From Pseudeuparius sepicola (lineage: Eukaryota > Arthropoda > Insecta > Coleoptera > Anthribidae), in NCBI GenBank assembly GCA_963920635.1, contig OY987303.1, forward strand, positions 15,354,175 to 15,418,174: 64,000 nucleotides of DNA, in the 5' to 3' direction. Numbering within the stretch: position 1 is the first letter of the stretch; every line of letters begins with the position of its first letter. A program made the translations under genes and the position numbers. Of this stretch, positions 1 through 62,971 are shown piece by piece. The notes under the pieces are model-generated. The model was given only the letters and a program-made list of their open reading frames with translations. It was not told the origin of the DNA and made no database searches.

Positions 1-600
1 CGCACCCAATACATAATGCATGGAGGGCAATGCGGCGGTAGAAATTATAGAATTTCAATTTCCCAATGATAATTATTATGGATATATTGCTCTCGGTTTA
101 ATAGACATGTCTCGCCGCCTATGCACCTTAATACAATTACATCGAATATTCAATAGCCCCGATGACTCTCTATGCGCTCTAATGGCGCGCACCGGAGGTT
201 GGTTTCAAGTATAATATGCTTGGAATAATGGGGAAGTTTCTGTTCAAACCTCCACTGACATTACCAAGTCAACCACATTTTTTAGAGAGGATGGTATTGT
301 GTTAATCGCAGATGGGAACAAAAAATATAGGTAAGACAGGCGATAATAATAAGAGAAAGTAATAATAATGCAAAATATTATGTTTTCCCCGTGAACCAAT
401 AACGAACAATGGGGCTTGACCGGAAAGAGACACAGTTCAACGCCGCACATTAGCAAATCCCTTTACCGGTGCAACGTTACAGGCTTCTCCTGACATTAGG
501 TCATCTCCGGGCTTTCGTTTTTTAGGTAAATCCTTTTAAACTGGACGAATTAAAAACAAACGACTCTATTTCGTCGCCGACTTTAAATAATTAACTAAGG
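1..600. other. AT-rich stretch, no gene recognised
   Basis: I see no coding pattern, RNA gene or repeat end here. Short open frames on both strands have composition and length expected by chance. Confidence 0.5.
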
Positions 601-9660: not shown

Positions 9661-9668
9661 CCGCATTT

Positions 9669-11030
9669 TTTTAAATTATTAAATTATTATTATGATGTAA
9701 TCACTTGTCCCCACATAACTTTAATTAGGCAACTGTATTGTTGAAAGATAATTTTTTTATGTAAAACTTAAATCGTTTTTAATTCTTGTTTATTTTCGTA
9801 AATTTGTGAGAATTCGTGTAAAATATTCTTCGTGATTTGAAATGAATTATTCAAATGTTCTCGAAGCGTTTTACTTGGTCGTTCAGGAGGCAGGAAGACA
9901 TTAGACTTCTCCTCTCTCCTTCTATCTAAGATTTGATTGTTCCTTCGTAGTCTGCCACACGTCTGTTGGTTAAGAAACCTCGAAGAACTTTCTCAAAAGC
10001 GTCTATTCTTCTCGGCCGCCGCTCCCCTCAGCCACTTCCTCCGGTCCGCCCTTATTCTCTTCCGGGCGGGGTAATGAGTCGGGGCTCGAACACGAATTTT
10101 TCGATTATTTATCATTTTTTGAATTAATTAAATTATTATTATGAAGTAATCACTTGTCCCCACATCACTTTAATTAGGCAACTCTATTGTTGAAAGGTAA
10201 TTTTTTTATGTAAAAGCTAAATCGTTTTTAGTTCTTGTTTAATTTCGTAAATTTGTGAGAATTCGTGCAAAATATTCTTCGTGATGCGAAATGAATTATT
10301 TAAAAATGTTCCCGAAGCGTTTTACTTGGTCGTCCAAGTTGGGATGTTCAGGAGGCAGGAGGACAGCATAGACTTCTCTCTCCGTCTATCTAAGATTTGA
10401 TTGTTCCTTTGTAGTCTACCACTCGTCTGTTGGTTAAGAAACTTCGAAGAGCTTCCTCACAAGCGCCTATTCTTCTCGGCCGCCGCTTCCCTCAGCCACT
10501 TCCTCCGGTCCGCCCTTATTCTCTTCCGGGCGGGGTAATGAGTCGGTGCTCGAACACCAATTTTTCCATTATTTATCATTTTTTTGAATTAATTACATTA
10601 TTATTATGAACTAATCACTTGTCTCCACATCACTTTAATTAGGCAACTGTATATTGTTGAAAGGTATTTTTTTATGTAAAAGCTAAATCGTTTTCAGTTC
10701 TTGTTTAATTTCCTAAATTTTTGAGAATTCGTGCAAAATATTCTTCGTGATTTGAAATGAATTATTCAAATGTTCTCGAAGCGTTTTACTTGGTCGTCCA
10801 GGTTGGGATGTTCAGGAGGCAGGAGGACAGCAGCAGACCTCCCCTCTCTCCTTCTCTCTAAGATTTGATTGTTCCTTCGTAGTCTGCCACTCGTCTGTTG
10901 GTTAAGAAACCTCGAAGAGCTTCCTCAAAAGCGCCTATTCTTCTCGGCCGCCGCTCCCCTCAGCCACTTCCTCCGGTCCGCCCTTATTATCTTCCGGGCG
11001 GGGTAATGAGTCGGGGCTCGAACACAAGTT
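9669..11030. repeat. three tandem units of about 455 bp
   Basis: The marker TCACTTGTCC recurs at 9701, 10150 and (as TCACTTGTCT) 10615, giving unit spacings of 449 and 465 bp. Each unit runs from an AT-rich part into a GC-rich 3' part ending GGGCGGGGTAATGAGTCGG. The units differ by scattered substitutions and small indels, so the duplication is not recent. No open frame is conserved. It may be a local satellite or a multiplied regulatory element. Confidence 0.9.
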
Positions 11031-11930: not shown

Positions 11931-12406
11931 CCCAACGAAAACTTTACCCAAAAAATTAGAAAACCGAAAAATATTTGAAAAATCGCCGAGACTCGTCGAT
12001 TTTTGTTTTTGGGGGGAGCTTTTTTGACAGTCAAGCCAACCCGATTTGTTCATCCCCCTAATCCCTAGCAACCCCAACTTTTAAATTTCAAATGGAACTA
12101 CCCCCCTTGTGGCGCATCATTTTAAAGCCCTTTTTATTGCGAATACAGTGATGTATCATTTTTAGAATTCTGTCGAGATTTGGCAGAATTATTTACTAAA
12201 AACGGAAAGTTGACAATCCACTGTACGCGTAGTAATTTCTACACAGGACCAAATTACCTAGTTTTTATTGATGTGTCGATCAGTGTACAAAAAAGTCAAA
12301 TATGTTACAAAAAGTCACCGTCACAAAAAAAGTTCCCGGTTTTTTGCTTGTAACCACGAAATCGTTAGTTTCAGCCTGATATTGAAAGTGGAAACGTATT
12401 TTCGAA

Positions 12407-12475
12407 ATGATTTATTCTATCGCGGAAAGAGTAGAAATTGTTGCAATTCGTGCTGTAGCTTTAGTGCAATCATGA
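12407..12475 (+). pseudogene. transposase N-terminal relic in left arm of D
   Basis: From the ATG the frame reads MIYSIAERVEIVAIRAVALV and stops after 22 codons. The pattern M-x-Y/F-S-x-x-E/D-R/K-x-E-I-V matches the first helix of the helix-turn-helix in mariner-like transposases of the kind encoded at 45139-46215 (MEYLSIRDKIEIV). It suggests D arose by internal deletion and inverted duplication of a coding element. Confidence 0.55.
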
Positions 12476-12527
12476 TTTCGATAACAAATTGCAACAATTT
12501 CTACCCTTTTCGCGATAGAATAAACCA
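12470..12527 (-). pseudogene. mirror transposase N-terminal relic in right arm of D
   Basis: On the minus strand an ATG at 12527 opens MVYSIAKRVEIVAICYRNH, the counterpart of the plus-strand relic in the other arm. Having the same start codon region in both arms shows that the palindrome includes the 5' part of the former gene. Confidence 0.5.
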
Positions 12528-13429
12528 TTTCGAAAATACGTTTCCACTTTCAATAGCATGCTAAAACTAACGATTTCGTGGTTACAAGCAAAAAAAATGG
12601 GAACTTTTTTGTGACAGTGACTTTTTGTTACATATTTTAAAAAGATATAAGGTTTGAATTCGTATGAACCTTTTTTGTTTTGCTTCAGCTTTTTCATTTC
12701 TGACTTTTTTGTATACTGATCGACACGTGAATAAAAACTAGGTAATTTGGTCGTGTGTAGTAGATAAAAAACTTAATAGTGGCGGACATTATTTGTGTAG
12801 AAATTACTACGCGTACAGTGGATTGTCAACTTTTCGTTTTTTGCCAATAATTCTGTCAAATCTAGACAGAATTCTAAAAACGATACATCACTGTATTCGC
12901 AATAAAAAGGGCTTTAAAATGATGCGCCACAAGAGGGGTAGTTCCATTTGAAATTTAAAAGTTGGGGTTGCTAGGGATTAGGGGGATGAACATATCCGGT
13001 TGGCTTGACTGTCAAAAAAGCTCCCCCCAAAAACAAAAATCGACGGGTCTCGGCGAATTTTCAAATATTTTTTGGTTTTCGAATTTTAGGGGGGGTCAAG
13101 TTTTCGTTGGGAAACCCTGTATAATGTTGTGTTTAGTATTTTCATCTAGCTTATGTGCTAAATAAACTTGTAACTATTCTACTGATAGGTATCATTCATT
13201 GTTTGTTTATTCATTGTTTGCAATGAAAATTTATCCAATAGCTGGAACAGTCACAGACTTCTCAATCTCATCGATGTCATTTTCAAAGGGAGGAATTACT
13301 AAAAGCCCCGTATGTTGTTTAGACTTAAGCATGTTCCTACAATACTTTATAGAAAATAATGCTAAATCAAAATACAATAAATACCCTATACCTACTTACA
13401 TAATAAAACAACCTACACTTCAGTTTTTA

Positions 13430-14127
13430 ATTCTCAGGTTATGTTTTCAGTGTCCCTTTTTATTTAATACAAAATGCAACTCTAAAATCTTTATTGAGAT
13501 AATTTTATTTCGCGGTAATATTTATAAGGCATTTTGGCCTTCTTTAAGCCCTTTTTTACTTTCAAGTCCAAAAACCTACTCTTTTTGAACTTTTTAGTAC
13601 TTATTTAGGTATTGTTTTTTGTAATTAGGATATTATATATAAACCTAAAAATGACCAAAAACCTATAAGGATATAACAGGTCGAATATAGATTTTAAGTT
13701 ACTTACTATCTAATCTATTTTCGGCCTAATCTATAGGGACTAATATTGAGACAAAATGTACTTCTTTATAGTCTCTAAAATTTCACAAATTATTTTTTGA
13801 CTAATGACTATACGGGCATTTGGATGGTTAAAAGGAAGTAAATTATTGACCAAAAAATTGATGATAAAATAATATGTCCCTTGTCTTCAAACCCTGATTT
13901 TAGGAAATAATAAACTAAATTAGGACTAAATTACTTTCTTAAAAATTGAGCGTTTATGAAGCTTATTAGTAGATTAGAAATCAATAGTTTTAGATAACAA
14001 AAATTTCTTCTTAGGTTTTTCACACCTTAAACAATTATTTTCTAAAGGAAAAAATTGGTTAAACTTTACTTTCGTATAGGTAATTCTCATCCAAACATTG
14101 GTAAAGACTTGACTAGGCCTGCTTCTT
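13430..14127. repeat. repeat family O, copy 1 (uninterrupted)
   Basis: Aligns in reverse orientation with 62029-62970 and with 36555-36689 plus 37996-38060. The shared end reads ACATTGGTAAAGACTTGACT before AGG at 14127. It provides the empty site for the A3 insertion (about 37 kb) and the ribozyme insertion (62 kb). It has no coding sequence and its left limit is uncertain. The CTAG at the end would be compatible with a Helitron-like 3' terminus, but no hairpin or TC start was established. Confidence 0.7.
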
Positions 14128-17335: not shown

Positions 17336-18688
17336 AGATATACCAATTTGATACTGGACACCTCAGAACTATTATGAAGGACATGGAAAACAAATGGTCT
17401 CTATTTTTTTATTGGTAGTCCCAAGGGAGAGTATCACATATATACCCCGATTACTGTAAGAAGTCCCGATTTTGTCAGATGACATTCTCCACAAAATCCC
17501 TAGGAACTTTCTGTTAACCATGGGTATAACATTGGTATATGCGTCGCAACCAGTTAATGACGTCACTCATTGATATATATGATGTGAAAAGTTACCCAAG
17601 TGATACGAAAAAAAGAACATAATAAAATAAAAACCCTATTGAAATTAGGATTATACTGCTACAAATAAAAATAACTATGACTAGAACTCATTTTAATAAT
17701 AATTTCAAACGTCATGGAAACACTTTTCATTTTGATATTTTTGTAAAATCGGCTACTTGCGGCAGCGTCTATGGTGCGTACTCAGGCAAATTTTATTTCC
17801 GTTTTCCGTGTTGTGAAAGTAAAAACCTATATATATTTTGTGGTTCAAAAGGGTTCAAACTTTGGGCAGTGGAAATATTCGCGGGTTTTGTACGTTTCCT
17901 GAGTTTTAGCGTTATCTGTGTTGTTCTTGATATTGTTATTAGTAGTTATTCATTATGCAAATGAGCTCGTTACTGACCTGAACTTTTGACCCGGTTGCAT
18001 TTTTTTGCTCCATCGATGCCAACTTAGGATTTCGAAATTACCAATTGACAGTCCCAGTAAGGACTACTTATAATAATTTTACTATAGGCGGGTGGTATAT
18101 GGGTGGGGTAATTATTTCATGGCCTGCTATGATTTTTTAAAATAGCTAATTTAACAAAATGCTATTAAGAAAACTTGTTCAGAATGAAAAACTGAGTAGA
18201 ATTACAAAATTCCAAAAGTCTAGGCCTACTTTGATTTTTAGCTTTTTCGATTTCTTCTCCCACTTTTTTTCTTAAAAATGTGTCCTTTCTGGAGCTTTCA
18301 CATCAAAATATTATTAAGGAAACTTAATCATTGTGAAAAAATAAAATTTTGACGTGAAAGCTCCAGAAAGGACACTTTCTAAGAAAAAAGTGGGAGATAA
18401 ATCTAAAAATTAAAGCAGGCCTAACCTTTTGAAATTTTGCGAATCAACTCAGTTTTTCATTCTGAACAAGTTTTCTTAATAACATTTGGTCGTAAAAATC
18501 TCTAATGGGGTTTCTTGAAAATTTGCTGTTTTAAAAAATCAAGCAGGCCATGAAATAATTACCCCATCCAAATACCACCGCCTATGAGGTACTTTCCCTT
18601 GTTACTATTAATAAAAAAATAGAGACCATTTGTTTTCCTTGCCCTTCATGTATTTCTGAAGTGTCCAGTATCAAATTGGGACACACTG
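17336..18688. mobile_element. foldback element C, interrupted by B1
   Basis: The right end reads TTGGGACACACTGTA. The left end at about 17336 is its degraded complement (ATACCAATTTGATACTGG). Excluding B1, the left arm (17336-17440 plus 18087-18305) pairs with 18350-18688, for example ACAAATGGTCTCTATTTTTT in both. The centre loop is about 18305-18350. It has no coding sequence. The CACTGTA end and overall form match the TA-flanked foldbacks. Confidence 0.75.
17445..18082. mobile_element. element B1 (TATA-flanked)
   Basis: About 638 bp, nearly the same as 37155-37779 in inverse orientation. Both copies lie between TATA words (17441-17444 and 18083-18086 here). Ends show a weak inverted repeat, ATTACTGTAAGAAGTCC against ATTATTATAAGTAGTCC. 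The right arm of element C gives the empty site. A 95-codon plus-strand frame (17677-17964) is not conserved enough to be called a gene. Confidence 0.75.
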
Positions 18689-29918: not shown

Positions 29919-30020
29919 AAACATTTTAATTAATTTTCAAAATTCTTGTCTTGGGAATCAACCATCAAAATGAATGTGGTAGTGTTATCACATTAGATCT
30001 TTATTATTTAGTTGTAGACA

Positions 30021-30062
30021 GCTTACACATGTTTCGATCCGTAATGAGATCATCTTCAGAGC
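30021..30062 (-). ncRNA. hammerhead-like motif, left arm of Y
   Basis: On the minus strand: GCT, CTGAAGA, a GATC/GATC helix with one unpaired base at its foot, GAAA, then ACATGTGTA and AGC. This is the order of a minimal type I hammerhead with a very short stem III. The extra base at stem II makes activity doubtful. Confidence 0.45.
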
Positions 30063-30311
30063 AATTATAAAAACATGCATCTAACTAGCATTTTCTATTT
30101 TTTAGGTAAAAATTTTCATGTTGCATTAAACAGACATGGCTTTTATGAATAATACCCTAAGAGTATAATGAATAATGAATAATATCCTAAATAATACCCT
30201 AAGAGTATACCTACAACTATTTTTTAACTAAAAGCCATGTCTGTTTAATGCAACATGAAAATTTTTACCTAAAAAATAGAAAATGCTAATTAGATGCATG
30301 TTTTCATAATT

Positions 30312-30353
30312 GCTCTGAAGATGATCTTATTACGGATCGAAACATATGTAAGC
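30312..30353 (+). ncRNA. hammerhead-like motif, right arm of Y
   Basis: Same arrangement as the other arm: GCT (stem I), CTGAAGA at 30315-30321, GATC helix, GAAA at 30339-30342, stem III ACA/TGT with loop TA, predicted cleavage after A30350, then AGC closing stem I. Confidence 0.45.
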
Positions 30354-30481
30354 TGTCTACAACTAAATAATAAAGATCTAATGTGATAACACTACCACAT
30401 TTATTTTGATGGTTGATTCCCACGACAAGAATTTTGAAAATAAAATATTGACAACCAGGAAACCTAAAACATTTTAATTAA

Positions 30482-38381: not shown

Positions 38382-40284
38382 ATGAACCGGGAGATAGTGA
38401 CAGATTTTTGGACGTGATTTTACTCAGTATGCCTTTCATAGGGCATTATGTTACGTATATTCTCACAATAATAAGGTATGAATCAGAGAGTCATCCTGGG
38501 TTCTTCATATGGAAAAATAAATTTTCATTTCTTCGAAAAATATGAGTTTTGATATGATTTTAGTCAGGCTGCCATGTGTTTTATAATGAAGTTCAAAATA
38601 GAAAATTCCTCGGAAAACCATAAGCATATGGTGGGTCCAAAGGGCTATTATTGCCCTGTGAACTTGTATTTTAATAATTAATTTTTCCATGTTTCTGAAC
38701 AGGCTGCCAATGAGAAGTATGCAAGTTCCTGTTATGAAACTGCCGAAGAAAAGATGGCATACCGTTTGCGCATGTCCAAGTACGCTTTACATCGAATAAA
38801 TCCTTTAAGTTATTAAATCACATTCAATTTAAACAGTACTTGGACTTGGACATGCGCAAAAGGTATGCCATCCTTTTTTCAGCATTTTCATAACAAGCAC
38901 TTGCATATAGGTACTTCTCATTGGCAGCCTGTTCAGAAACGTGGAAAAATTCATTATTAAAATACAAGTTCACGTGGCACTATAGCCCTTTGGGCCCACG
39001 CTAACGGTATGTCTATGGTATTCCGAGGAATTTCCTATTTTGAACTTCATTATAAAACACATGGCAGCCTGTCTAAAATCATATCAAAACGCATATTTTT
39101 CGAATAATTGAAAACTCAGTTTTTCATATGAAGAACCCAGGATAACTCTCTAATTCATACCTTATTATTGTGAGAATATGTGCCACATAATGCCCTCTGC
39201 AAGGCATACTGAGTAAAATCACGTTCAAAAATCTGTCACTATATGCCGGTCGCATTTTTACCGACCCTATACACGTTCAGCGCGTCATTTTGCGGAAGAC
39301 GCCCGAACGGAAGGCGTACCGATCGTAAACGCCTTCAGGGCACGGTGACGGTGCTAAACGTATCTAGTATAGGTTAGGTTTGTAAGGTTTGTTTACGAAC
39401 TGCATCGCATGCTACTGGGTTCAAAATGAGTAAAATTAATAAGTTTTTTGCGTTTTATACAAGTTGCAAAGTAGAAACAAAGGATTTTAAATCCAGTGAA
39501 TGTTTTATAGTCGATATCCACCCAAAATTTGATTCAAATGACTACTAAATTTAAATTTAAATAATTTTTATCTTAAACTTTATTTTCAAGTTTTTTGTCG
39601 GTTCTATATAAAATAAGATAATTCGGTTTTAAGATTTTACCTGTTGCTTAATTTTTTGGTAATATTGATAACTTAATATTTTGTTTTTAGATACATTTTG
39701 AGCACAGCCATCTGATTAATGTTGCCGAAGCATATGGCATCAAACTCAAAAGGCCATTAACATATTCTATTTTCTTTTGTATTGTGTATTGTGTTATAAG
39801 TATGTTTGGAGCTTGATAATAAATCATTGTTTTTGAAAGTAACAACCCTTTACGCATAATATGTACTTAGTTATTTTTTAATATATTATCAAGAACAACT
39901 GTAGCTGAATATAAGAAAAGTATTTCTTTAAGTGCAAAAAATGGTAATTTTCTGCCTGGGAAAAAACGAACTAAAATAAAGCTTTGGTTCATTTGGTTTA
40001 TCTTATCACACTTTACCTATCTGCCATATCGCATTAAAATATAAAATGATTTTGGCATGAAGTACAAACATAAAATTCCCTCAATGCTAACTATAACTAT
40101 TTCTGTAAAGAAATGCCTGTGCAGAAACATGGCAAATGCTGCGAGAGATTTGGTTACTAATCCTACACATATTCAGCGCGAACTGCTGAAATCAGCTAGG
40201 GTCGGTAAAAAGAAGCATCGCATATCTTCGGCAAATTGACGCGCTGAACATGTATAGGGTCGGTAAAAATGCCTCCCGGTCTAT
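38382..40284. mobile_element. element K with long inverted ends, interrupted by J
   Basis: GCATTTTTACCGACCCTATA at the left (39253-39272) and its complement at the right (about 40250-40269) continue inward as CACGTTCAGCGCGTCA against TGACGCGCTGAACATG. The outer ACCGGGAG/CTCCCGGT words lie at 38386 and 40275, so J sits inside the left inverted repeat. The interior has a 40-codon frame from 39426 (MSKINKFFAFYTSCKVETKD) that I cannot assign. Confidence 0.6.
38397..39239. mobile_element. foldback element J (TA-flanked)
   Basis: GTGACAGATTTTTGGACGTG at the left and the complement at the right continue as an inverted repeat over almost the whole 843 bp, with a short loop near 38800. TA on both sides (38395-38396, 39240-39241). 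No coding sequence. Confidence 0.85.
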
Positions 40285-44719: not shown

Positions 44720-45089
44720 CAGTGTGACCCATTTGTTTTGGGGTCAGTCTGTAAAAAGTGTATCAATCGTGCGATTTGGCTGATTTTTTTTTTAAATTGT
44801 AGAGCTCGATGAACTGCACATTTTGAACAAAAATTGCCTGGTTCGCATAAAATCCAAAGCCTACTATGACCGTTTTTATGAGCAAAATTTTAAGAAACCA
44901 TATTAGCGTTTTTTTTTTTGAAAAAATCTGTGTGCGCCAATGGATTGAGCACCCCTCGAAATGGGTATGTACAAAATTTCATCAAAATATTTCAAGTAAT
45001 AACGATTTTGTAGAAAAATTAAAAATGCAGCCAAGGTACGTCTTCATTTTCAAAAATTCAAAGTTGGCCATGGAAAATAATTGAATTGT
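44720..45089. repeat. left terminal inverted repeat of DD37D element
   Basis: Pairs with 46293-46660 almost without change, from CAGTGTGACCC at the edge to GGAAAATAATTGAATTGT at the inner limit. Far longer than the 20- to 30-bp ends of classical mariners. Confidence 0.95.
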
Positions 45090-45138
45090 AATAATACAAC
45101 CTTATGCTTATAAACACAAAACATAAAAACAATTAAAA

Positions 45139-46215
45139 TTATAAAATTTTTGTAACTTCTACCAAGCCTCCATTTTCTACAATGCATTTGTCGTTCCTCT
45201 TGCGTACATTCAAAATTACATTTCGTATTTGCTGTGGAGTAATTTCCTCACAACTACGGTTTATCCTAGCTTGCAGTTCTTGTAAATTATGGGGTCTTGA
45301 CTTATAAACATTTTGCTTAAGTGTACCCCAAAGAAAAAAATCTAAAGGAGTTAAGTCCGGAGATCTCGGTGGCCACTCACAGAAAGGACTATTTCGCCCT
45401 ATCCAACAGTTTTCAAAATTATTATCTAGCCAGTTTCTGATTAAACGAGCATTATGAATAGGACTGCCATCTAACTGTAACTTTAAATTTAAACGGTATC
45501 TTAATGGTAACTCATCTAAAGCATTTCTAAATTCAATTTCTAGAAAATTCAAGAAGCCAGCCGCATTCAAATTCCCTTCAAAGAAAAATGGGCCAATTAT
45601 TCTGTCGCGTAGTATTCCACACCAAACGTTAATTTTTTGTGAATATTGTCTCCTTGCATTTATTATAAACTCTGGATTTTCAGCTGACCAGTGACGGCAG
45701 TTTTGACTTGATACTACACCATTTGTAGTAAACGTGGCTTCGTCGGTGAATAAAATTTCATTTAAAAAGTTGCCATTATGGAGATATTCACCTTGCAGCC
45801 AATAGCAAAATTCTAATCTTCTCTCCTCATCTCCTGGTTCCAGGGTGTGCAAAAATTTTGGCTTAAACGGTTTTATTTTGTTTTGTCTCAAACATCTCCT
45901 TATACTCTCTCTGGGTATATGAAGGTCTAAACTAGCCGTTCGAACACTATTTCGAGGATTGTCACTAAAGTATTGCAGAATTTGATTGTTATTTTCAACA
46001 AGTCCACGGCGTCCATTTTGCCTAGTTTTTAATAAATTTTTAGAAATCGATCCAGTTTCATCAAAAATATTGTTTATACGTTGTACAGTACTTCGACTCA
46101 CTGATCTACCTGGGTGTCTATTGTTAAATTCGGCCGCAGCTTCTGCTGCCGAGCGCTCGTTGTCGCCCACGAGTCGAACAATTTCTATTTTGTCTCTTAT
46201 GCTTAAATATTCCAT
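45139..46215 (-). CDS. IS630/Tc1/mariner-superfamily transposase, DD37D
   Basis: It would cut and rejoin the ends of its own transposon in the nucleus. I start it at the ATG at 46213-46215 (358 residues, MEYLSIRDKIEIVRLVGDNE), because the ten codons upstream (MCSIQLIIII) are unlike the family. Residues 1-60 form the first helix-turn-helix, with RSVSRSTVQRI as recognition region. A second one follows at about 75-115 (RTASLDLHIPRESIRRCLRQ). The catalytic acids fit D158 (LFTDEATF), D249 (QLDGSPIHN) and D287 (WPPRSPDLTPLDFFLWGTLK), with 37 residues between the last two. The reading frame has no stop or frameshift. Lengths of 330-380 are usual for the group. Similar proteins in insects are often labelled Tc3-like or DUF4817-containing. 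Activity is likely but untested. Confidence 0.95.
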   Translation of the reverse strand: MEYLSIRDKIEIVRLVGDNERSAAEAAAEFNNRHPGRSVSRSTVQRINNIFDETGSISKNLLKTRQNGRRGLVENNNQILQYFSDNPRNSVRTASLDLHIPRESIRRCLRQNKIKPFKPKFLHTLEPGDEERRLEFCYWLQGEYLHNGNFLNEILFTDEATFTTNGVVSSQNCRHWSAENPEFIINARRQYSQKINVWCGILRDRIIGPFFFEGNLNAAGFLNFLEIEFRNALDELPLRYRLNLKLQLDGSPIHNARLIRNWLDNNFENCWIGRNSPFCEWPPRSPDLTPLDFFLWGTLKQNVYKSRPHNLQELQARINRSCEEITPQQIRNVILNVRKRNDKCIVENGGLVEVTKIL

Positions 46216-46292
46216 AATTATGATAATTAATTGTATTGAGCACAAACAATTTCTGAACTCAATTTAGACAGTTTGATATTTAATAAAAGTAA

Positions 46293-46657
46293 ACAATTCA
46301 ATTATTTTCCATGGCCAACTTTGAATTTTTGAAAATAAAGACGTACCTTGGCTGCATTTTTAATTTTTCTACAAAATCGTTATTACTTGAAATATTTTGA
46401 TGAAATTTTGTACATACCCATTTCGAGGGGTGCTCAATCCATTGGCGCACACAGATTTTTTCAAAAAAAAACGCTAATATGGTTTCTTAAAATTTTGCTC
46501 ATAAAAACGGTCATAGTAGGCTTTGGATTTTATGCGAACCAGGCAATTTTTGTTCAAAATGTGCAGTTCATCGAGCTCTACAATTTAAAAAAAAAATCAG
46601 CCAAATCGCACGATTGATACACTTTTTACAGACTGACCCCAAAACAAATGGGTCACA

Positions 46658-46660
<3 letters not shown>
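46293..46660. repeat. right terminal inverted repeat of DD37D element
   Basis: Counterpart of the left repeat, ending AAACAAATGGGTCACACTG at 46660, directly followed by TA repeats. It probably carries the transposase promoter, since the gene starts 78 bp inside it. Confidence 0.95.

Positions 46661-46702
<42 letters not shown>
46661..46702. repeat. TA microsatellite
   Basis: Pure TA run followed by ACATATTATTATGTTTTAG. The same junction recurs at 59027-59045 after another TA run. Confidence 0.95.
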
Positions 46703-46703
<1 letters not shown>

Positions 46704-47070
46704 CATATTATTATGTTTTAGTTTTATACACGTAAAAATCTCACCGGAGCTGTGACATCCATCGACGCTGTGAGATCCAAAATCGGATGCCACAACGTTT
46801 TCCAATGCTAATCGTGTTATAATGTTTGTAGAATCGTACCCTACGAATTCTGGCCGGATGTCAAAAATGCGTTGTTGTAAAAATTTTGTATATTTTTAGT
46901 TCCGGTGTATATCTACCAGGTGGCGCGCGAGTTGCGCGGTTTTGTATGTTAAATATACTCTGGATAATTTTACTCCATCGACTCGTGACATCCAGAACGT
47001 TTCTGGTGTATATTAGTTCTTACACGTTAGATTAAGTGGCATCCGAAATTTGACAACACCGCAAGAATAG
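46703..47070. repeat. repeat with clustered GTGACATCC motifs
   Basis: GTGACATCC or a one-base variant occurs at 46752, 46785 (complement), 46856 (complement, partial), 46985 and 47036. The same word clusters at 57672, 57880 and 57907 beside another TA run. Together with the shared ACATATTATTATGTTTTAG this suggests one dispersed repeat family. Function unknown. Confidence 0.55.
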
Positions 47071-48714: not shown

Positions 48715-48930
48715 GCGTCCTCACTATTTGAGTTGATGGGCAAAATATCAGGTTGAGGACAAAAACAACAATATCTGTTTTTTTTTAGAAAGTGCCGACG
48801 TTTCGACGTATATTTTTCGTCTTCTTCAGGGCTAAAAATATATACAATGCTGACTATAGTGCAATGTATGACACAACAATAAATTACATAAACATATAAC
48901 AACTATGTATATAGGTACGCTTGGAATGTT
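48715..48930 (-). repeat. left terminal repeat of PLE1 with hammerhead-like motif
   Basis: Complement of the right repeat. On the minus strand 48792-48832 reads AGCC, CTGAAGA, A, GACG...CGTC (stem II), GAAA, CGTC, GGC. Stem I would be GCC/GGC and stem III a single pair. Such minimal hammerheads are described for Penelope-like elements and may work as dimers. Confidence 0.7.
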
Positions 48931-48942
48931 GGAATTTTTCGT

Positions 48943-49777
48943 ATTACAGTTTTTGTCGAAACAAAAACGCTTAAACTTTGGCGTACAATGTGTGGTATCA
49001 TTGAGTAAAGGAATAAAATTATTCCTTTACTCAATGGTGGTATGGATTCTTGGGAAGAAAATATATGGGAAGCCAGTTGTCGTTTACTGAAGTCCATCCA
49101 TAAGATCCAGGATCTTCAAGTTGTGACTTCGCAACATTACTTGAATATTTTTAACTGCTACGGGCACCTGCAACTGCCAATAATTAAACAATCCAATATA
49201 TAATTTCAAACTAGTAATACCTCAAAAAATGTTGATAAAAAGCACAATCAGTAGGGGGAAGATCGAAGAAAGTTTATTAGATTTGGTGGCCATTGCGTTT
49301 AGTGACTATGGCCACATTTTTATGTTTACAGCTCTTTGTTTTTGCGTGATTTTAAAAAGTCACGAAACGTATGCACCTATCTACTACTATGCACGTTAAA
49401 ATCTAAAATCTATAAAATAAATAAACATTTCATTTCCATAAACAAAATTGTAAAAAAATTCTTACGAATTTTCCCCTACTAACATTTTTTGAGGTATTAC
49501 AAGTTTGAAATTATATATTATATAATCAACATTTTTTGAGGTATTACAAGTTTGAAATTATATATTGGATTGTCTCATTATTGGCAATTGCAGGTGCACG
49601 TACAGTTAAAAATATGGTATTCAAGTAACGTTGCGAAGTTGCAACTTGAAGATCCTTTATCTTATGGATATAGACTTCAGTAAATGACAATTGAATTCGC
49701 ATATTTTCATCTCAAGAATCCATACCAAACATTGTACGCCAAAGCTTAAGCCTTTTTGTTCCGACAAAAAGTGTAAT
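48943..49777. mobile_element. foldback element V inside PLE1
   Basis: ATTACAGTTTTTGTCG at the left pairs with the complement at the right, and about 290 bp of each arm match (48943-49235 with 49505-49777). A 37-bp direct duplication begins at 49491 and 49528 (AACATTTTTTGAGGTATTAC). No coding sequence. Confidence 0.7.
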
Positions 49778-50064
49778 GCAAAAAAGTGCAAATTTAATAT
49801 TATTATAAAAAATCAATATAAAAATTTTTTTATTTTGCAGTTCATTAAATAAATGGTGACTTTAAACAGATACATAAAATAAGCAGGTGGTTGTTTGTTC
49901 ATCTGGCAACTGTAATTACTGCTCAAAAATTGCCAAAAATCAACTATTTGGTTATTTTATTTCTTATTTTATTTTATTGGTCTGCTTGAACCCACATTAT
50001 TTGGTCTAAAATTAATAATTAATTTTACCAGCGATCTGTTATAGAATAGTCCACACGGAGAGGT

Positions 50065-50247
50065 AAAACTACCACAAGTCGTATATCTGAGAGTACTTCC
50101 AAATAGTTTATGTAAACGCTCCCAGAGACTTACCTACTCTTTGTCTTTTAGAGATCGTTTACAATGGCAGTGAGTTCTCCCTGAGAGGGTTTACATTGGC
50201 AAACTATTAGGAAGTACTCTAAGATATTTATACTTGTGATAGTTTCA
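50065..50247. repeat. small hairpin X inside PLE1
   Basis: GAGAGTACTTCCAAATAGTT and, complemented, TTAGAGTACTTCCTAATAGT form the arms of a hairpin of about 180 bp. Possibly a tiny MITE. Confidence 0.55.
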
Positions 50248-50856
50248 CTTGCGCGTGTAAACTACGCATTAGTTGTTGAGACATGCCTGCCACGCGTGGA
50301 TATTCTCACGCAAGGGATTAATTTTGCGTTCCACGTGAGTAGCGTGCGCCACAAAAAAATTCACAGTTCAAAAACTATAGGCGCTATAGGTAATTTTTTT
50401 TACCAAAAACTTCTTTTATGTTTTGGGCACATTTCCCTTGCAGCATGTATATAAAAATTTCCGCAAATAAAAAAGTTTCTCGCTTAGTGAAAATTTCATT
50501 ACACTTTTTATAACCTTGCAATTTTGTTGCTATTTAAAGTGGTTAATAAACAATATTGGACAATAACAATGGCATTCGTTGTAAGCGCTCATATTTATGT
50601 TAACTTCAATTTAAAAAAAATCGAGTCAATAGCTCCACTACTCTCAAAGATATGACGATGGAAACGTAAAAAACACAATTTCCGTTTTTTCGAAATAAAA
50701 AAGGTCTCGACCACAAAAAAATGTCCTAAATCGCCATTTCGTATGCAGAGTGATGTACTTAACAACACCTATGGGGTCTGATCTAGTCTGATCTACCCAC
50801 AAAATTTTTTTTTGAGAACGGAGCGACTTTTTAGCCCGATTTCGCTCCACTAGTAG

Positions 50857-50938
50857 GTACCTTTCTTAAAACTGTATGTTGATGACATAATTTTAGCCAT
50901 TCCAAAAAAACATGAATCTGAGTTGCTACAGATATTTA
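50857..50938 (+). pseudogene. Penelope reverse transcriptase fragment with YVDD
   Basis: The plus frame reads VPFLKLYVDDIILAIPKKHE then SELLQIF. YVDD holds the catalytic aspartate pair, and VPFxxxYVDDI is typical of Penelope-type RTs. A stop lies just upstream and no earlier RT motif is present, so the N-terminal two thirds are lost. The frame resumes at 53907 after W: joining across the TA gives continuous sense. Confidence 0.85.
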
Positions 50939-53904
50939 TAGTCGAATTAAATTACGGACTTAAGCTTGCAAAAAATTGTAACATTATGAATTAAAGTGAA
51001 TCCTATGTATTTTGAGGTCTTTCCGAAAAAAGTAAAAAAAAAATGTAGCCCCGGGTCGAAATTGCCCAAATTTGGGATTATGTTCACTTTTCAATTTTGC
51101 GCAGGCGTATCTTGGAAACGAATCAATATTTTGAAACGGGGTTTACACCATTTTAAAGCATAGGAAAAATGGTAATTTTCATGTCCCTTGAAAAATTTTG
51201 ATCCGAGGCACCGTTCCCGAGATATAGACGATTGAAATGTATGTAGTATTTTGAGAAAAAATTGGGTGCTGAAGGCAGAAAATTTGAATGTTCGAACACT
51301 AAAGTTTTCATAACTTTGGTAAAAATTAAGATATTTGAAAAAACAAAAATGCGTTTTGAATGTAAGGGACGAGACTATTGATATCCAGAGGGACGCAAGA
51401 AAAATCCCAAAATTGGGCATATGGCGGAGGGGCAAATGACCTAATTTCATTGGTTGCCTGTAACAGGCAAACTATTTGAAATTTGTTAATGCCACTGACA
51501 GAGCTTACTCTTGAATGTCCATTCTTATGTTTGTATGAGTTTTACCGAAATCGGACTATAATTGGCCAAGATATCAAAGAATTAAATATTTTTTTCCCCA
51601 AAAAAAATATTTTTTTGAAAATCTGAAATGCACAAAAATGCCAAAAATGCACCCAATGACTAGAATTTTTTTATTTTTTAGTACCTCAATGTGTCTAGAA
51701 TACCACTACGTTATAGAAAATTCGTCAAAAATATTTTGTCTATTTTTCTGACATTGTTCATTGTGTGAGTACCAAAAAAACATGGTTTTTGGGAAAAGTT
51801 GCCTAAATTGGCAATTTTCAATAACTTGGTCTGAAAGGTGGGCAAACCTAAATTGGATGTCGTCTCAACATGTGTACGAAGTTACAAGTCTGTATGTCTA
51901 TTCTAAGTTTTAGAATTCCCCCGACAAAAGTCCCGTTACACGCGCTCCGCGGGATCCAAAAATCGTACAGTGTCACTATTGAAGCAGGCACCATAAGGGA
52001 TTTTTTTTTATTTTGGATAAAATGTTAATTTGACTTTGCCATCGATTTGTGCTTGTCAGAGGATGAAAATGACGTCGCAAGAGTCGACCACGTGACTTGC
52101 GGTATCTGTCAAAATTGACATTTTTTTCAAAAATTATCCAAAATCGGCTTTATTTGACACATTTTCGATAAAAGTTATTAGAAAAAGTTGTTTCTTTTGC
52201 AATTTTTGGCCTACATACCAATTTTCAGAGACCCTTGATAACATTTAACTTTTTGCGTGTTTTTGTAAAAAATTTCCAAACATTTCAACTGAAATGTATT
52301 TATTGAAAGTTGTATTTTTACCTAACCTAACCAGTTGATTTCTTAAACAATCTCTATTTGGTTTAAAAAATTATGTTAAGCTTGGTGCAAAGTTGATTTA
52401 ATTTCAAAGGTTTGATGAACACAAACCTAGTCTATTTTTCACGTCGTTAACTACTTTCATCTAAAAAGAGTTATGTAAAGAGAATACAAATAAATGAACA
52501 CATTTGGTTCATTTGGAAATTAAAGTAGCGGTTCCCGATGGAAATTTATCTCTGATAACAGTTTAAGTAAAAAAAATGAGTAGGCTATGGAGACAGAAAT
52601 CTTGCATTCCATTTGCGCGCTTTGAGTGCCGAACATTGCCAGAGAAATGTATACAAAATGGTTTCTATTGACAATCATCCCAAAAGTCAATGTTCAGGTT
52701 CTCGTTGAGATAAAGGCCATTGCTTTCCAGATATTCTGCCGTCTTCTTTTAAATGGAGGAAAATTTCGTTGAATAACAATGACTTGTCGATTTACTGAAA
52801 GAGAGAGAAAAAATTGGGAAAAAATTCAGAAAAAACTTTTTGTCATATTTTTGCATACTATTGCAGATTTGGGCATGCGACTTATCACATTCAAAATATA
52901 TCCGAAAAATACTCATTTTTTGGTCTTAGGAAATTGCTCATAAAACAAAAGTGGTTTTCTCTTAAATCCAAAATTTTCAATTTTTTCGAGTAAGAACAAG
53001 CACACTGTCGACCTTTTCCGTAATTTGGGCACCTTACAGACATTAGCGCAATTTCGTTTTGTTTCCATCTACAAGAGTGCCTGAAAATACGTAATAATCA
53101 GTAGGTCAAAAAATTAATGTTTTGCAAATTTTTCGCAAAATATTACAGATTTCGCCACCCGACCTCATTCGAAAGGTAACCAGAAAATACGCATTTTTTG
53201 TTTAGCATATATATCTTCTCGTATTTCAAGTTTTTTTTTCAAATCACGAAAAACCAGATTTTAGAGAACAAAAAACAAACTTATCTTATCACCAAGTTGG
53301 AACTTACACACAGGCTTAGGATTAATTTCCTAAAATTATTTACAGTATATTTTTTGTGTATTTTTTTGCGTTCTTACCGAAGGCGAAGTAAGCTTTCTAC
53401 CAAATTGCAAATTTCCGAAAAACTATGGCAGATTTCGCCGCAGGACCTATTTTGTTTGAAAGCCAAAAAAAAACCAAAATCTCTCATAGGCACATATTAT
53501 GGCCTAACACTTATAGTTTCGCCACAAATTCAACGTGAATTTCGTGTTCATGGTTCTGATCAAAAAAACGAAAAAATCAACTTTTTGGTATAAGCGCCTC
53601 TGGCGGCGAGAAATACGCCTTAAAAATATGGGTATATGAATTTCCGAACTATTTTTGCCTCCTCTTTCGACTGGTGCATTTATTTTTACCATAGGGGTAG
53701 TACTTGGCGAGATAATTAGCAATTTTCCTTGAGAAAATCCGGAAAACCCGGTTTTTCCCAATTTAGAAAATTTCGACCAGGGGCTACATTTTATTTTTTA
53801 TTTTTTTGGACAGAGCGCATCAAAATACATAAGATACAATTTGTTTCATCCAGTTACAATTTAATGCAAGCTCGAGAGGTCTTTTTTTCGTAATTTAATT
53901 AGAT
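50939..53904. mobile_element. 3-kb TA-flanked long-TIR element W, splitting the PLE1 RT
   Basis: Outer TA (50937-50938 and 53905-53906). Inverted ends of about 140 bp align, with AATTAAATTACG, AGCTTGCA, TATGTATTTTGA and ATGTAGCCCC in the same order in both. Removing W plus one TA restores the RT frame (LLQIF then INNFQPQ), which is strong evidence for the insertion point. The interior has no frame above 131 codons and none resembles a transposase. Non-autonomous, probably of the mariner/Tc1 group from its TA site. Confidence 0.85.
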
Positions 53905-53906
53905 TA

Positions 53907-54652
53907 TTAACAATTTTCAGCCACAGATACAATTTACAATGGAAACAGAATCTGATAATCAACTCCCGTTTTTGGATGTTTTGGTTGTCAGAGATCATGT
54001 AGGTACATTGTCCACCAACTGGTACACCAAACCAACAAGCTCAGGGAGAGCTGAATTATTTGTCCGGTCATCCACAGTCACATAAAGTTAGCACTATTAA
54101 AAATTTAATACGTAGATCAGCCTCTCTCAGCAGTCCTCATTTTCACAAACAAAACAAAGAAAAAATAAAATCTATTTTAAAATTAAACAACTATCCATTA
54201 TATTTTAAGTTTCCATATATCCGCAATTTGTCAGAAAAAAATAGAAAAGGTCAAAATCTAGTCACCCTCTTTATCCTGTCAGACAGGTAAAATCTATATT
54301 ATCATGTTTAAAAGACAAAACACCTCACATGGTCAATTCCAATTTAGTGCATCAAATCAATTGCAAAAATTGCAATAAGTGTTACATTGGTATTACAAAA
54401 CAGTATTTAAAAAATCAAGTCTACCAACATACCAACAATATAATTGTCGTGAGAGAAAAAAAAAACAAATTTGAAAAAACTGCCTTAGCACAGCACCATT
54501 TTTTGACAAAACATGATTTTGACTTTGATGAAGTAAAGATTCTAGACAGAGAGCCATATTATTATAAAAGAACTATTAGTGAGATGATTCACATATCTAC
54601 AAAGTCAACGGTGAATTTTAAAACTGATGTAGCAGGTCTAAGTATCTAATAT
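53907..54652 (+). pseudogene. Penelope RT C-terminus plus GIY-YIG endonuclease, frameshifted
   Basis: Begins INNFQPQIQFTMETESDNQL, then PFLDVLV and TNWYTKPTSSGR, the conserved RT thumb region of Penelope-like elements. A frameshift near 54045 is followed by LNYLSGHPQSHK and a basic helix region. A second shift near 54285 leads into the endonuclease, with CKNCNKCYIGITKQYLKN (zinc-binding cysteines beside the GIY-YIG core) and a nearby histidine, ending DVAGLSI. GIY-YIG nucleases nick the target for reverse transcription. Two shifts and the lost N-terminus make it non-functional. Confidence 0.9.
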
Positions 54653-55111
54653 TTGTAAAGGCTTGTTAACGATATACATCAAATTTGCAAAAGTAAAAGA
54701 TAATGGTTACAGGTAGTAAAATGAATACACCCAGTATATAACTGTAAAATAAGTAGTTAAATTATAAAAAAATAAATAAAAAATAATCCATAACTTGATA
54801 TCTACCGAACTAATTTTTTGTTGTAACATACTGAGGTTTTTTTGGGGAAAAAATCTAATTATATAGCTGTTCTCGTTGACGTCCCGACCATAAATATATT
54901 TACGTTCTACATTGATCGCCAACTTTGACTAACAAATGATTTGGTTTCGTTTCTGTATCATTTTATCCTGTGATACCTATGTGCTCTATGAAATTTTGTA
55001 TAATTGACTTAAATATCTGTGATATAGAATAGGTGAGTACTCTGTATTTTTGTATTGTTTCTTTTACGTTTGTTTGTACACATAGTTATGGTTGTTATCA
55101 AGTTATCCTAA

Positions 55112-55289
55112 CTTTCCAAGCGTACCTATATAGTTGTTATATGTTTATGTAATTTATTGTTGTATCATATACACTATAGTTAGCATTTTTAGCCCTGAAG
55201 AAGACGAAAAATATACTTCGAAAAGTCGGCACATTCTAAAAAAACAGATATTTTTGTTTTTGTCCTCAACCTGATATTTTGCCCATCAA
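55112..55289 (+). repeat. right terminal repeat of PLE1 with hammerhead-like motif
   Basis: Same sequence as the left repeat in opposite orientation. The motif at 55191-55231 (AGCC CTGAAGA A GACG ... TTC GAAA AGTC GGC) has a weakened stem II compared with the left copy, so it is more decayed. Confidence 0.7.
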
Positions 55290-57932: not shown

Positions 57933-57961
57933 TATATATATATATATATATATATATATAA
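57933..57961. repeat. TA microsatellite, left of ribozyme array
   Basis: Pure TA run. Together with the run at 58984-59026 it brackets the tandem array, which therefore probably landed inside a TA tract. Confidence 0.9.
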
Positions 57962-58191
57962 GAAAAGGTGATAATGCAGCTTCAGTCAGCACATCCCCTA
58001 TTTTGGGGCTTGTACTAACATCGCCACGGAGGCTGCTAAAGCGACCTGCGTGGAAATCTTCATAACCCAAGATACAATGACAATAAGGATGTAAGATTAT
58101 GACTGAAGCTGCAAATGTGCTGTTGGCTCCTGCCTGGACTTCATTTGTTGCTTCCCAAATCATGCCTATCTTTTGATTTGGTTAATGTTAC

Positions 58192-58236
58192 ACCGTACTG
58201 ATGATTGCCAAATAGCATGAAACACGTGTATGCGGT
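58192..58236 (+). ncRNA. hammerhead ribozyme, array copy a
   Basis: Stem I ACCGTA (58192-58197) pairs with TGCGGT (58231-58236) over six positions, one of them a G-T pair. CTGATGA is at 58198-58204, stem II TGC/GCA at 58206-58217, GAAA at 58219-58222, stem III ACA/TGT with loop CG, cleavage after A58230 (GTA triplet). The first pair of stem II is a U-U mismatch, which may lower activity. Confidence 0.8.
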
Positions 58237-58517
58237 TACTAGTTTTTTCTTTTTGTTAACTTTGAGTGTTTGCCCATTATCACCTTTTCTTGTAATTGTT
58301 ACATTTACACTCGCTAATCTTACATCCTTATTGTCATTGTATCTTGGGTTATGAAGATTTCCACGCAGGTCGCTTTAGCAGCCTCCGTGGCGATGTTAGT
58401 ACAAGCCCCAAAATAGGGGATGTGCTGACTGAAGCTGCAAATGTGCTGTTGGCTCCTGCCTGGACTTCATTTGTTGCTTCCCAAATCATGCCTATCTTTT
58501 GATTTGGTTAATGTTAC

Positions 58518-58563
58518 ACCGTACTGATGATTGCCAAAACCTCATGAAACACGTGTATGCGGT
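58518..58563 (+). ncRNA. hammerhead ribozyme, array copy b
   Basis: Same stem I, CTGATGA (58524-58530), GAAA (58546-58549) and stem III as copy a. Stem II has changed (CAAAACCTCAT), so this copy is probably weaker. Cleavage is predicted after 58557. Confidence 0.7.
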
Positions 58564-58844
58564 TACTAGTTTTTTCTTTTTGTTAACTTTGAGTGTTTGC
58601 CCATTATCACCTTTTCTTGTAATTGTTACATTTACACTCGCTAATCTTACATCCTTATTGTCATTGTATCTTGGGTTATGAAGATTTCCACGCAGGTCGC
58701 TTTAGCAGCCTCCGTGGCGATGTTAGTACAAGCCCCAAAATAGGGGATGTGCTGACTGAAGCTGCAAATGTGCTGTTGGCTCCTGCCTGGACTTCATTTG
58801 TTGCTTCCCAAATCATGCCTATCTTTTGATTTGGTTAATGTTAC

Positions 58845-58889
58845 ACCGTACTGATGATTGCCAAATAGCATGAAACACGTGTATGCGGT
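58845..58889 (+). ncRNA. hammerhead ribozyme, array copy c
   Basis: Identical to copy a in the core: CTGATGA at 58851-58857, GAAA at 58872-58875, stem III ACA/TGT, cleavage after A58883. Confidence 0.8.
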
Positions 58890-58981
58890 TACTAGTTTTT
58901 TCTTTTTGTTAACTTTGAGTGTTTGCCCATTATCACCTTTTCTTGTAATTGTTACATTTACACTCGCTAATCTTACATCCT

Positions 58982-58983
<2 letters not shown>

Positions 58984-59026
<43 letters not shown>
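58984..59026. repeat. TA microsatellite, right of ribozyme array
   Basis: TA run followed by ACATATTATTATGTTTTAG, the same junction as at 46661-46721. Confidence 0.9.
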
Positions 59027-59027
<1 letters not shown>

Positions 59028-59239
59028 CATATTATTATGTTTTAGTTTTTTTTGGTTGGTGGCTTCAAGTAAACTTTACAATGGATAAAACAGGGATATT
59101 CACAACAAAATAAAATTTAGTTTAAAGCCATAAAAAGGCCTCAAATAAAATCTGTGTATTACAAAAAAATCAAACAATCTTTTCTGTACAAACATAGCAT
59201 GAAGTACCTGCTGTTTCTATTTGGCATTTAATTTGGTGT

Positions 59240-61960: not shown

Positions 61961-62286
61961 TTAGTGACAACACCGGCATTTACAATAATAGCGAATTTAT
62001 TAATATGATATTACCCCAACCAACATTTCTAGTCGAGTTTACCAATATTTGGTTGAGAAATACCTTATGAAGATAAAATATTACCAATTTTTTGCTTTGA
62101 TTGTTTAAAGTGCGGAAACCTAAAAGAAGAAGTTTTATTATCTAAAACTACTAATTTCTAACTTAATTATAAGGACAATAAGGATGTAAGATTAGCGAGC
62201 GTAAATGTAATAATTACAAGAAAAGGTGATAATGGGCAAACACTCAAAGTTAACAAAAAGAAGAAAAAAAAAAGAAAAGACTAGTA

Positions 62287-62334
62287 ACCACATACACGTG
62301 TTTCATGCTATTTGGCAATCATCAGTACGGTGTA
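62287..62334 (-). ncRNA. hammerhead ribozyme, minus-strand copy
   Basis: Minus strand reads ACCGTA, CTGATGA, TTGCCAAATAGCAT, GAAA, CACGTGTA, TGTGGT. Core identical to array copy a; stem I carries one more G-T pair. Confidence 0.7.
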
Positions 62335-62430
62335 ACATTAACCAAATCAAAAGATAGGTTATTGGCTCCTGCCTGGACTTCATTTGTTGCTTCCCAAATC
62401 ATACCTAACTTTTGATTTGGTTAATGTTAC

Positions 62431-62475
62431 ACAGTACTGATGATTGCCAAATAACATGAAACACGTGTATGCGGT
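62431..62475 (+). ncRNA. hammerhead ribozyme, plus-strand copy
   Basis: CTGATGA at 62437-62443, GAAA at 62458-62461, stem III ACA/TGT, predicted cleavage after A62469. Stem I has a mismatch (ACAGTA with TGCGGT) and stem II is weakened (AACAT), so activity is doubtful. Confidence 0.6.
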
Positions 62476-62971
62476 TACTAGTCTTTTCTTTTTTTTTTCT
62501 TAATTATAAGCTTCATAAACGCTGAACCTTTAAGAAAGTTATTTACTCCTAGTTTATTTTATTATTACTTAAAATGATACTCTGAAGACAAGGAAAATTT
62601 TATCATCAACACTTATAGCCAAAAGTTAACTCATTAAATTCTGGAGGTTATAAAGAAGTAAATTTTTTCTCAATATTAGTCCCTGTTGGTTGGGTCTAAA
62701 ATGGGTTAGATAGTAAGTAATTTAATATTTATATTCGACCTGTACATCATTATAGGTTTTCGATCGTTTTTAAGTTTATATGTATACACAATAATTACCA
62801 ATAAATACTATTAAGTTCAAAAAGACTAGTTTCTTGGGCTTGAAAGTAAAAAAAGGGGTTAAAGAAGGACACAATATCTTATAAAAATGACAATGAAGTA
62901 GAATTATCCCAATACAGATTTTAAAGTATGAAAATGATATAATAGAGAGGGCCACTCACACAATAAATATA

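Follow-up and report, generated by a model that had tools for sequence, protein, structure and literature searches.

Insertions of a Probable Retrozyme in the Window

The window, that is, the whole 64,000-nt stretch of Pseudeuparius sepicola DNA analyzed here, carries two insertions of a repeat family referred to below as a retrozyme. The first one, at 58 kb, comprises a tandem array and an inverted left arm, set between two TA tracts. In the unit numbering, position 1 is the base directly 3' of the predicted hammerhead cut.

57933..57960, no strand: left target tract (TA)14, Tandem Repeats Finder
57961..58099, – strand: inverted left arm, exact match to the reverse complement of unit pieces
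58100..58985, + strand: direct arm of 2.7 units, with unit position 196 at its start and 102 at its end (site B)
58100–58425: unit 1, 326 nt
58426–58752: unit 2, 327 nt
58753–58985: unit 3, incomplete, 233 nt
58192..58236, + strand: hammerhead copy 1, predicted cut after 58230, HH9 27.1 bits, E 2.7e-4
58518..58563, + strand: hammerhead copy 2, predicted cut after 58557, stem II damaged
58845..58889, + strand: hammerhead copy 3, predicted cut after 58883, HH9 score as in copy 1
58985..59026, no strand: right target tract (TA)21, Tandem Repeats Finder

The initial annotation, made from the sequence alone, had described this locus as three tandem 327-bp monomers. The period stands (327 with 98% matches in 58100–58985, Tandem Repeats Finder), but the array holds 2.7 copies, the third one having 233 nt, and 57961–58099, taken there for the start of the tandem run, is inverted: 57975–58099 is the exact reverse complement of unit positions 85–209, and 57961–57976, of unit positions 45–60. 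This left arm omits approximately 161 nt of the unit including the hammerhead, and the two arms overlap by just 12–14 nt on the unit. The sequence of units 1, 2, and 3 is the same throughout save a single patch in the middle unit, 58534–58546, the sole place where unit 2 departs from its neighbors, located inside the ribozyme.

The GC content of the unit is 40.8%. Counted from stop to stop, all reading frames over the array are shorter than 100 aa, an 82-aa frame across the unit has no relatives at E≤1 in a protein search, and no poly(A) is seen at element ends within the window. The linear unit RNA has a self-pairing z of –2.58 (one of 100 shuffles was as good), and the circle fold, a z of –1.06 versus first-order random sequences, with 58% of bases paired, below the 70% quoted in PMC4918200. 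As for the surroundings, the same 65 bp, (TA)21 and the next bases, occur at 58985–59049 and 46661–46725, adjoining two unrelated mobile elements, and the left flank has a 557-bp match (99%) adjoining another retrozyme copy elsewhere in the genome (L026).

The second insertion, at 62 kb, has two arms and perfect target duplications.

62162..62173, no strand: left target duplication CTTAATTATAAG, 12 bp, perfect
62174..62361, – strand: left arm, from unit position 261 to ~105 (site B), or 111 by an alternative gap placement
62287–62331, – strand: left-arm hammerhead, HH9 24.5 bits, E 8.4e-4
62362..62498, + strand: right arm, from unit position 219 to 27, off both sites
62431–62475, + strand: right-arm hammerhead with broken pairs, Hammerhead_1 at 13.6 bits, E 4.8 only
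62499..62510, no strand: right target duplication CTTAATTATAAG, 12 bp, perfect
13962–13967: old empty paralogous site of this insertion

It sits in a repeat whose old paralog at 13.48–14.12 kb is uninterrupted, with 72% and 76% identity on either side; in the paralogs at 38.0 and 36.6 kb, compared with the flank join placed one base short (62511), there is no empty site on both sides. An altered T-tract is common to both arms and absent from the 58-kb array, and the arms differ at 4 of 95 shared positions. The predicted cut is read through in both arms, so that a linear unit ending at the cut was not their template.

Predicted Hammerhead Ribozymes

The CTGATGA, GAAA, and GTA elements initially annotated in every monomer are present in all three array copies, and the cut positions proposed there (58230, 58557, 58883) agree with our predictions. 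The claim of a type I hammerhead in each copy holds for the core; copy 2, where CCAAAACCTCATG stands in place of CCAAATAGCATG, has lost stem II pairs. The predicted hammerhead has six pairs in stem I, three pairs above a U-U mismatch in stem II, and two pairs with an ACGU loop in stem III. The three-pair stem III described initially would leave a 2-nt loop, whereas two pairs and the ACGU loop are realistic; the energies were computed with the latter. Folded as a hammerhead, the isolated motif has –4.4 kcal/mol versus –6.9 kcal/mol for the minimum-energy fold, which is not a hammerhead, and for copy 2 the values are +0.5 versus –5.7 kcal/mol.

No Rfam family reaches its gathering threshold in the whole window. 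A permissive search over 1.15 kb ranks Hammerhead_HH9 first; it matches copies 1 and 3 with 27.1 bits and an E of 2.7e-4, short of the gathering score of 52, and copy 2, searched as 111 nt, matches no hammerhead family at E≤10. The hammerheads are beyond chance: a three-stem descriptor finds three sites in the window, all belonging to this retrozyme family, versus a single match when 300 first-order random sequences of 64 kb were scanned on both strands. A loose core pattern has seven matches in the window (mean 0.43 and maximum 4 in 100 random windows), and a second descriptor, composed after the motif at 30 kb (see below) had been noticed, has five, versus one in 200 random windows. A degenerate core pattern yields no matches in viral contigs and one in prokaryote contigs, in a cyanobacterial contig without comparable tandem repeats, which we judge to be due to chance.

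The unit lengths of 327 and 326 nt are as annotated, but the release of such units from the 58-kb array is doubtful, because copy 2 has lost stem II pairs and matches no hammerhead family; a 653-nt double unit would be as likely a product. In the predicted circle of 58558–58883, the hammerhead core is modeled as paired near unit positions 2–13, which would block the ribozyme.

Dispersed Copies in the Genome

Searching the animal's own genome (769 Mb) with the monomer, as had been proposed, gave 141 matches; 40 of the 83 candidate places were scored, and all counts below come from the scored places. Retrozyme matches occur at no fewer than 37 genomic places beyond the window. The initial annotation had named loss of the conserved core from copies elsewhere as evidence against its reading, and the copies do not bear this out: among 105 hammerhead-like sites in those fetched, a tally that includes duplicated loci and the array on contig C11, the core is kept in 79, core and stems in 55, and 39 are identical.

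For the analysis of insertion structure we retained 45 insertions of at least 150 nt, which include the two window copies and otherwise come from 38 fetched stretches minus the two covering the C11 array (L046 and L047). Clusters shorter than 150 nt were excluded, and one locus, L012, is a single insertion present twice. Arms in both orientations are found in 29 of the 45 insertions, and 27 of these 29 are head to head, the exceptions being L040 (tail to tail) and L038 (mixed).

The outer 3' ends are strongly clustered: 59 of 70 fall on two sites downstream of the predicted cut, 29 at positions 62–71 (near site) and 30 at positions 99–112 (far site). The two windows were fixed post hoc, with the data already seen; the fullest 10-nt window holds 29 outer 3' ends, and 2000 random sets gave at most 11. 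Only 4 of 74 5' ends lie inside the same two windows. The remaining 11 outer 3' ends, including the right end of the 62-kb copy (position 27), miss both sites. Both outer ends are on a site in 17 insertions, and all 17 (16, if L012 is counted once) combine one near and one far end. In the left arm of the 58-kb copy the automatic cut skips the 16-nt end piece, and the manually assigned end is position 60.

The 5' ends gather at unit position 196 (9 of 74) rather than around the cut, where the interval 322–5 holds 3 of 74. The clustering at 196 may reflect the point where transcripts begin or where a stable stem halts the enzyme. Target duplications of at least 8 bp outside TA runs accompany 14 of 43 insertions, compared to 6 of 924 shifted controls. 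A further 13 of 43 are set in TA repeats, and 16 of 43 have neither such a duplication nor a TA target.

Contig C11 carries approximately 11 kb of diverged tandem units (L046:1331–6469, L047:1575–3574; 79–87%, short pieces to 97%). By sequence, this array looks like a satellite-like relative of the retrozyme family.

Penelope-Like and Other Elements

Judging by sequence, the region 48733–55289 of the window is a decayed Penelope-like element, and a palindromic element is found at 30 kb.

48733..48930, – strand: inverted pseudo-LTR, 87% to 55110–55289, with a minimal hammerhead motif from 48829 to 48797 (motif only)
53903..54649, + strand: broken reverse transcriptase end and GIY-YIG endonuclease frame (protein match, Pfam)
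55110..55289, + strand: direct pseudo-LTR, hammerhead motif mutated
29934..30466, no strand: palindromic element with a hammerhead-like motif in each arm (motif only)
29919–29933 and 30467–30481: 15-bp target duplications of the palindromic element

The joined 53903–54649 query is 48% identical over 99% of its length to a protein of Harmonia axyridis, and two ladybird proteins top the protein search with this frame; the Pfam GIY-YIG match (E 0.013) is below the cut-off. A piece of reverse transcriptase with YVDD, 50857–50937, is weakly supported (E 0.003). Neither the pseudo-LTR copies nor the 30-kb palindrome have an Rfam hammerhead at E≤10. The arm ends of the palindrome lie at +90 and +116 relative to the predicted cuts, and 29919–30481 as a whole looks like a Penelope-derived head-to-head insertion. 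MicroRNA-type Rfam matches on palindromes were rejected as matches to long hairpins.

Other repeats in the window include a DDE transposon at 44720–46660 in a TA tract, with an uninterrupted 374-aa frame flanked by terminal inverted repeats that measure approximately 370 bp and are 99% identical; by these sequence features it was probably active recently. Three 464-bp tandem units (90% matches) occupy 9664–11025. Long palindromic repeats at 12298–12637, 18084–18585, and 38386–39250, with 74–85% between arms, gave no hammerhead match in the core scan.

In the genome, Penelope-like frames gave 111 matches, and 109 of 7809 candidates were scored. Among the matches listed, many frames are intact, several of them of 816–841 aa and in tandem. 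One intact, autonomous family, PLE2, could be compared with the retrozyme directly, using 37 copies with the 3' end inside the query. Counted from its own predicted cut, 15 of the 37 ends are at +61..68, 21 at +95..100, and one at +119. The copies form 13 outermost head-to-head pairs and no tail-to-tail pairs; 12 pairs have both ends on a site, all 12 being of the near-and-far kind, and the remaining one ends at +67 and +119, one end thus being off-site. Pairing was restricted to outermost pairs, and an inner minus-strand end at +98 on contig C9 was left unpaired. In another family, PLE1, the two copies read have ends at +70 and +107.

The far sites, ~102 in the retrozyme and ~98 in PLE2, differ by a gap of approximately 5 nt. 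Over the 125 nt following the cut, the similarity of the retrozyme to PLE1 and PLE2 is not significant (p 0.24 and 0.23, respectively), and a TCGCTAA match near the far site, considered as a shared signal, was dropped as not significant. As the distances are similar and a shared sequence was not found, the recognized feature may be structural.

Relation to Known Elements

The identification as a retrozyme in the initial annotation is supported, and this is the best name for the family, given its tandem units, its type I hammerhead, the lack of any frame reaching 100 aa, and the target duplications seen at dispersed copies. Metazoan non-LTR retrozymes have been described by Cervera and de la Pena (2020; PMC7229834), with insects named as hosts of similar repeats. 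The family agrees with that description in the type I hammerhead, short tandem units (~170–400 nt; here 326/327), GC content below 50%, the absence of a coding region, and target duplications of more than 4 bp where present (here 12 bp at 62 kb). Unlike the elements as described in the main text of that paper, where the words "inverted" and "head-to-head" are absent, it has head-to-head arms and two fixed 3' sites. In a search of open-licence texts without supplements, none of the matches listed described retrozymes with arms in inverted orientation or with two 3' ends. The ribozyme, compared by description, resembles the axolotl HHR_Amex2 (PMC7229834) in the U-U at the base of helix II and in helix III of two pairs and a tetraloop, and differs from it in the unit sequence and the host.

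With Penelope elements (PMC3846280 and PMC11167929), the family shares a preference for AT-rich targets, which are duplicated over a short length, an inverted arm placed head to head, a hammerhead upstream of the 3' ends, and a 3' end that on one arm may be slightly extended. In its arm layout it thus behaves like a Penelope element. The former source describes the Penelope layout as head to head with short duplications, where one inverted pLTR may carry a 31-bp tail; according to the latter, a lizard Penelope enzyme cuts AT-rich DNA and extends both strands, starting at two internal sites. Unlike Penelope elements, the retrozyme encodes no reverse transcriptase or GIY-YIG endonuclease, and hence is not a member; moreover, its hammerhead is canonical, not minimal, and no significant sequence is shared with PLE1 or PLE2. 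Penelope elements were considered strong helper candidates from co-occurrence (PMC7229834), and retrozyme repeats were said to lack any motif pointing to the helper (PMC7761336).

Mode of Insertion

Based on the sequence comparisons, we consider it highly probable that the copies are non-autonomous retroposons akin to other metazoan retrozymes and that Penelope-type machinery inserts them. We infer this machinery because the retrozyme and PLE2 both have two fixed 3' sites at similar distances after the hammerhead and use one of each. The hammerheads would cut the transcripts, which a host ligase would then close, a step taken from published work only. A Penelope-type enzyme would open AT-rich DNA, and each target end would prime cDNA synthesis within the retrozyme RNA, the first end using the near site and the other the far site; both cDNAs would extend upstream through the ribozyme and be joined where they stop. 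Tandem units could arise from cDNA synthesis that continues around a circular template or through an uncut multimer. Several observations stand against Penelope-type insertion: 11 of 70 ends are off-site, L040 and L038 have aberrant orientations, 16 of 43 insertions lack both a duplication and a TA target, the far sites are offset by ~5 nt with no shared sequence, the Rfam score is sub-threshold, and the minimum fold is not a hammerhead.

The element might instead be simply a non-autonomous Penelope derivative in which the hammerheads are decayed passengers, rather than a retrozyme with ribozyme-made circles. The sub-threshold Rfam score and the U-U at the base of stem II point that way, as do the broken ribozymes of copy 2 and the 62-kb right arm, the 5' ends not gathered at the cut (3 of 74 within 322–5), and the lizard element, whose ribozyme mutants left insertion in vitro unaffected (PMC11167929). 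Against it, the core is kept at 79 of 105 sites, with core and stems in 55 and 39 identical, and HHR_Amex2, which likewise has the U-U and only two pairs in stem III, reaches 22% cleavage within one hour, and more as a dimer (PMC7229834). We regard this explanation as unlikely.

Very unlikely is the mobilization of the retrozyme by LINE (L1-type) machinery, the inverted arms resulting from ordinary twin priming, with the second target strand priming inside the same RNA. Twin priming likewise yields head-to-head arms and accords with the short overlap of the 58-kb arms on the unit (just 12–14 nt), and the 15-bp duplications of Nematostella repeats were likened to those of LINEs in PMC4918200. 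It is, however, expected to produce one fixed and one variable 3' end, whereas all 17 insertions with both ends on a site use two fixed sites, one of each, and the Penelope family PLE2 has the same one-of-each pattern. No poly(A) end is seen at the two 3' sites, and the feature of LINE-dependent SINEs, a fixed 3' end with poly(A) or a similar tail, is not found: there are two sites, with 29 and 30 of 70 ends. Finally, ordinary satellite DNA spread by unequal crossing-over may fit the diverged ~11-kb array on C11, but as the origin of the family it is extremely improbable, being contradicted for the dispersed copies, which are short insertions with inverted arms, fixed 3' ends, and target duplications, one of them with an empty site.

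Returning to Penelope-type insertion, we tentatively put forward a bolder version, which we think possible though not probable. In both retrozymes and Penelope elements, the hammerhead region might serve as a landmark for the Penelope enzyme pair, cDNA starting ~65 and ~100 nt after the cut, one start per target end. Cleavage and circles would then be unnecessary for insertion, and the template would be a transcript with its 5' end near position 196, not a ribozyme product.

The retrozyme kind itself is already known; the footprint shared by the retrozyme and the Penelope element seems to be new. Any animal genome can be surveyed for this insertion footprint, and purified protein offers a way to test it. 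It suggests why a retrozyme and a Penelope element both carry a type I hammerhead. Moreover, the insertion ends, with the same two start sites, one of each, as in a Penelope element of the same genome, provide a clue to the helper of animal retrozymes.
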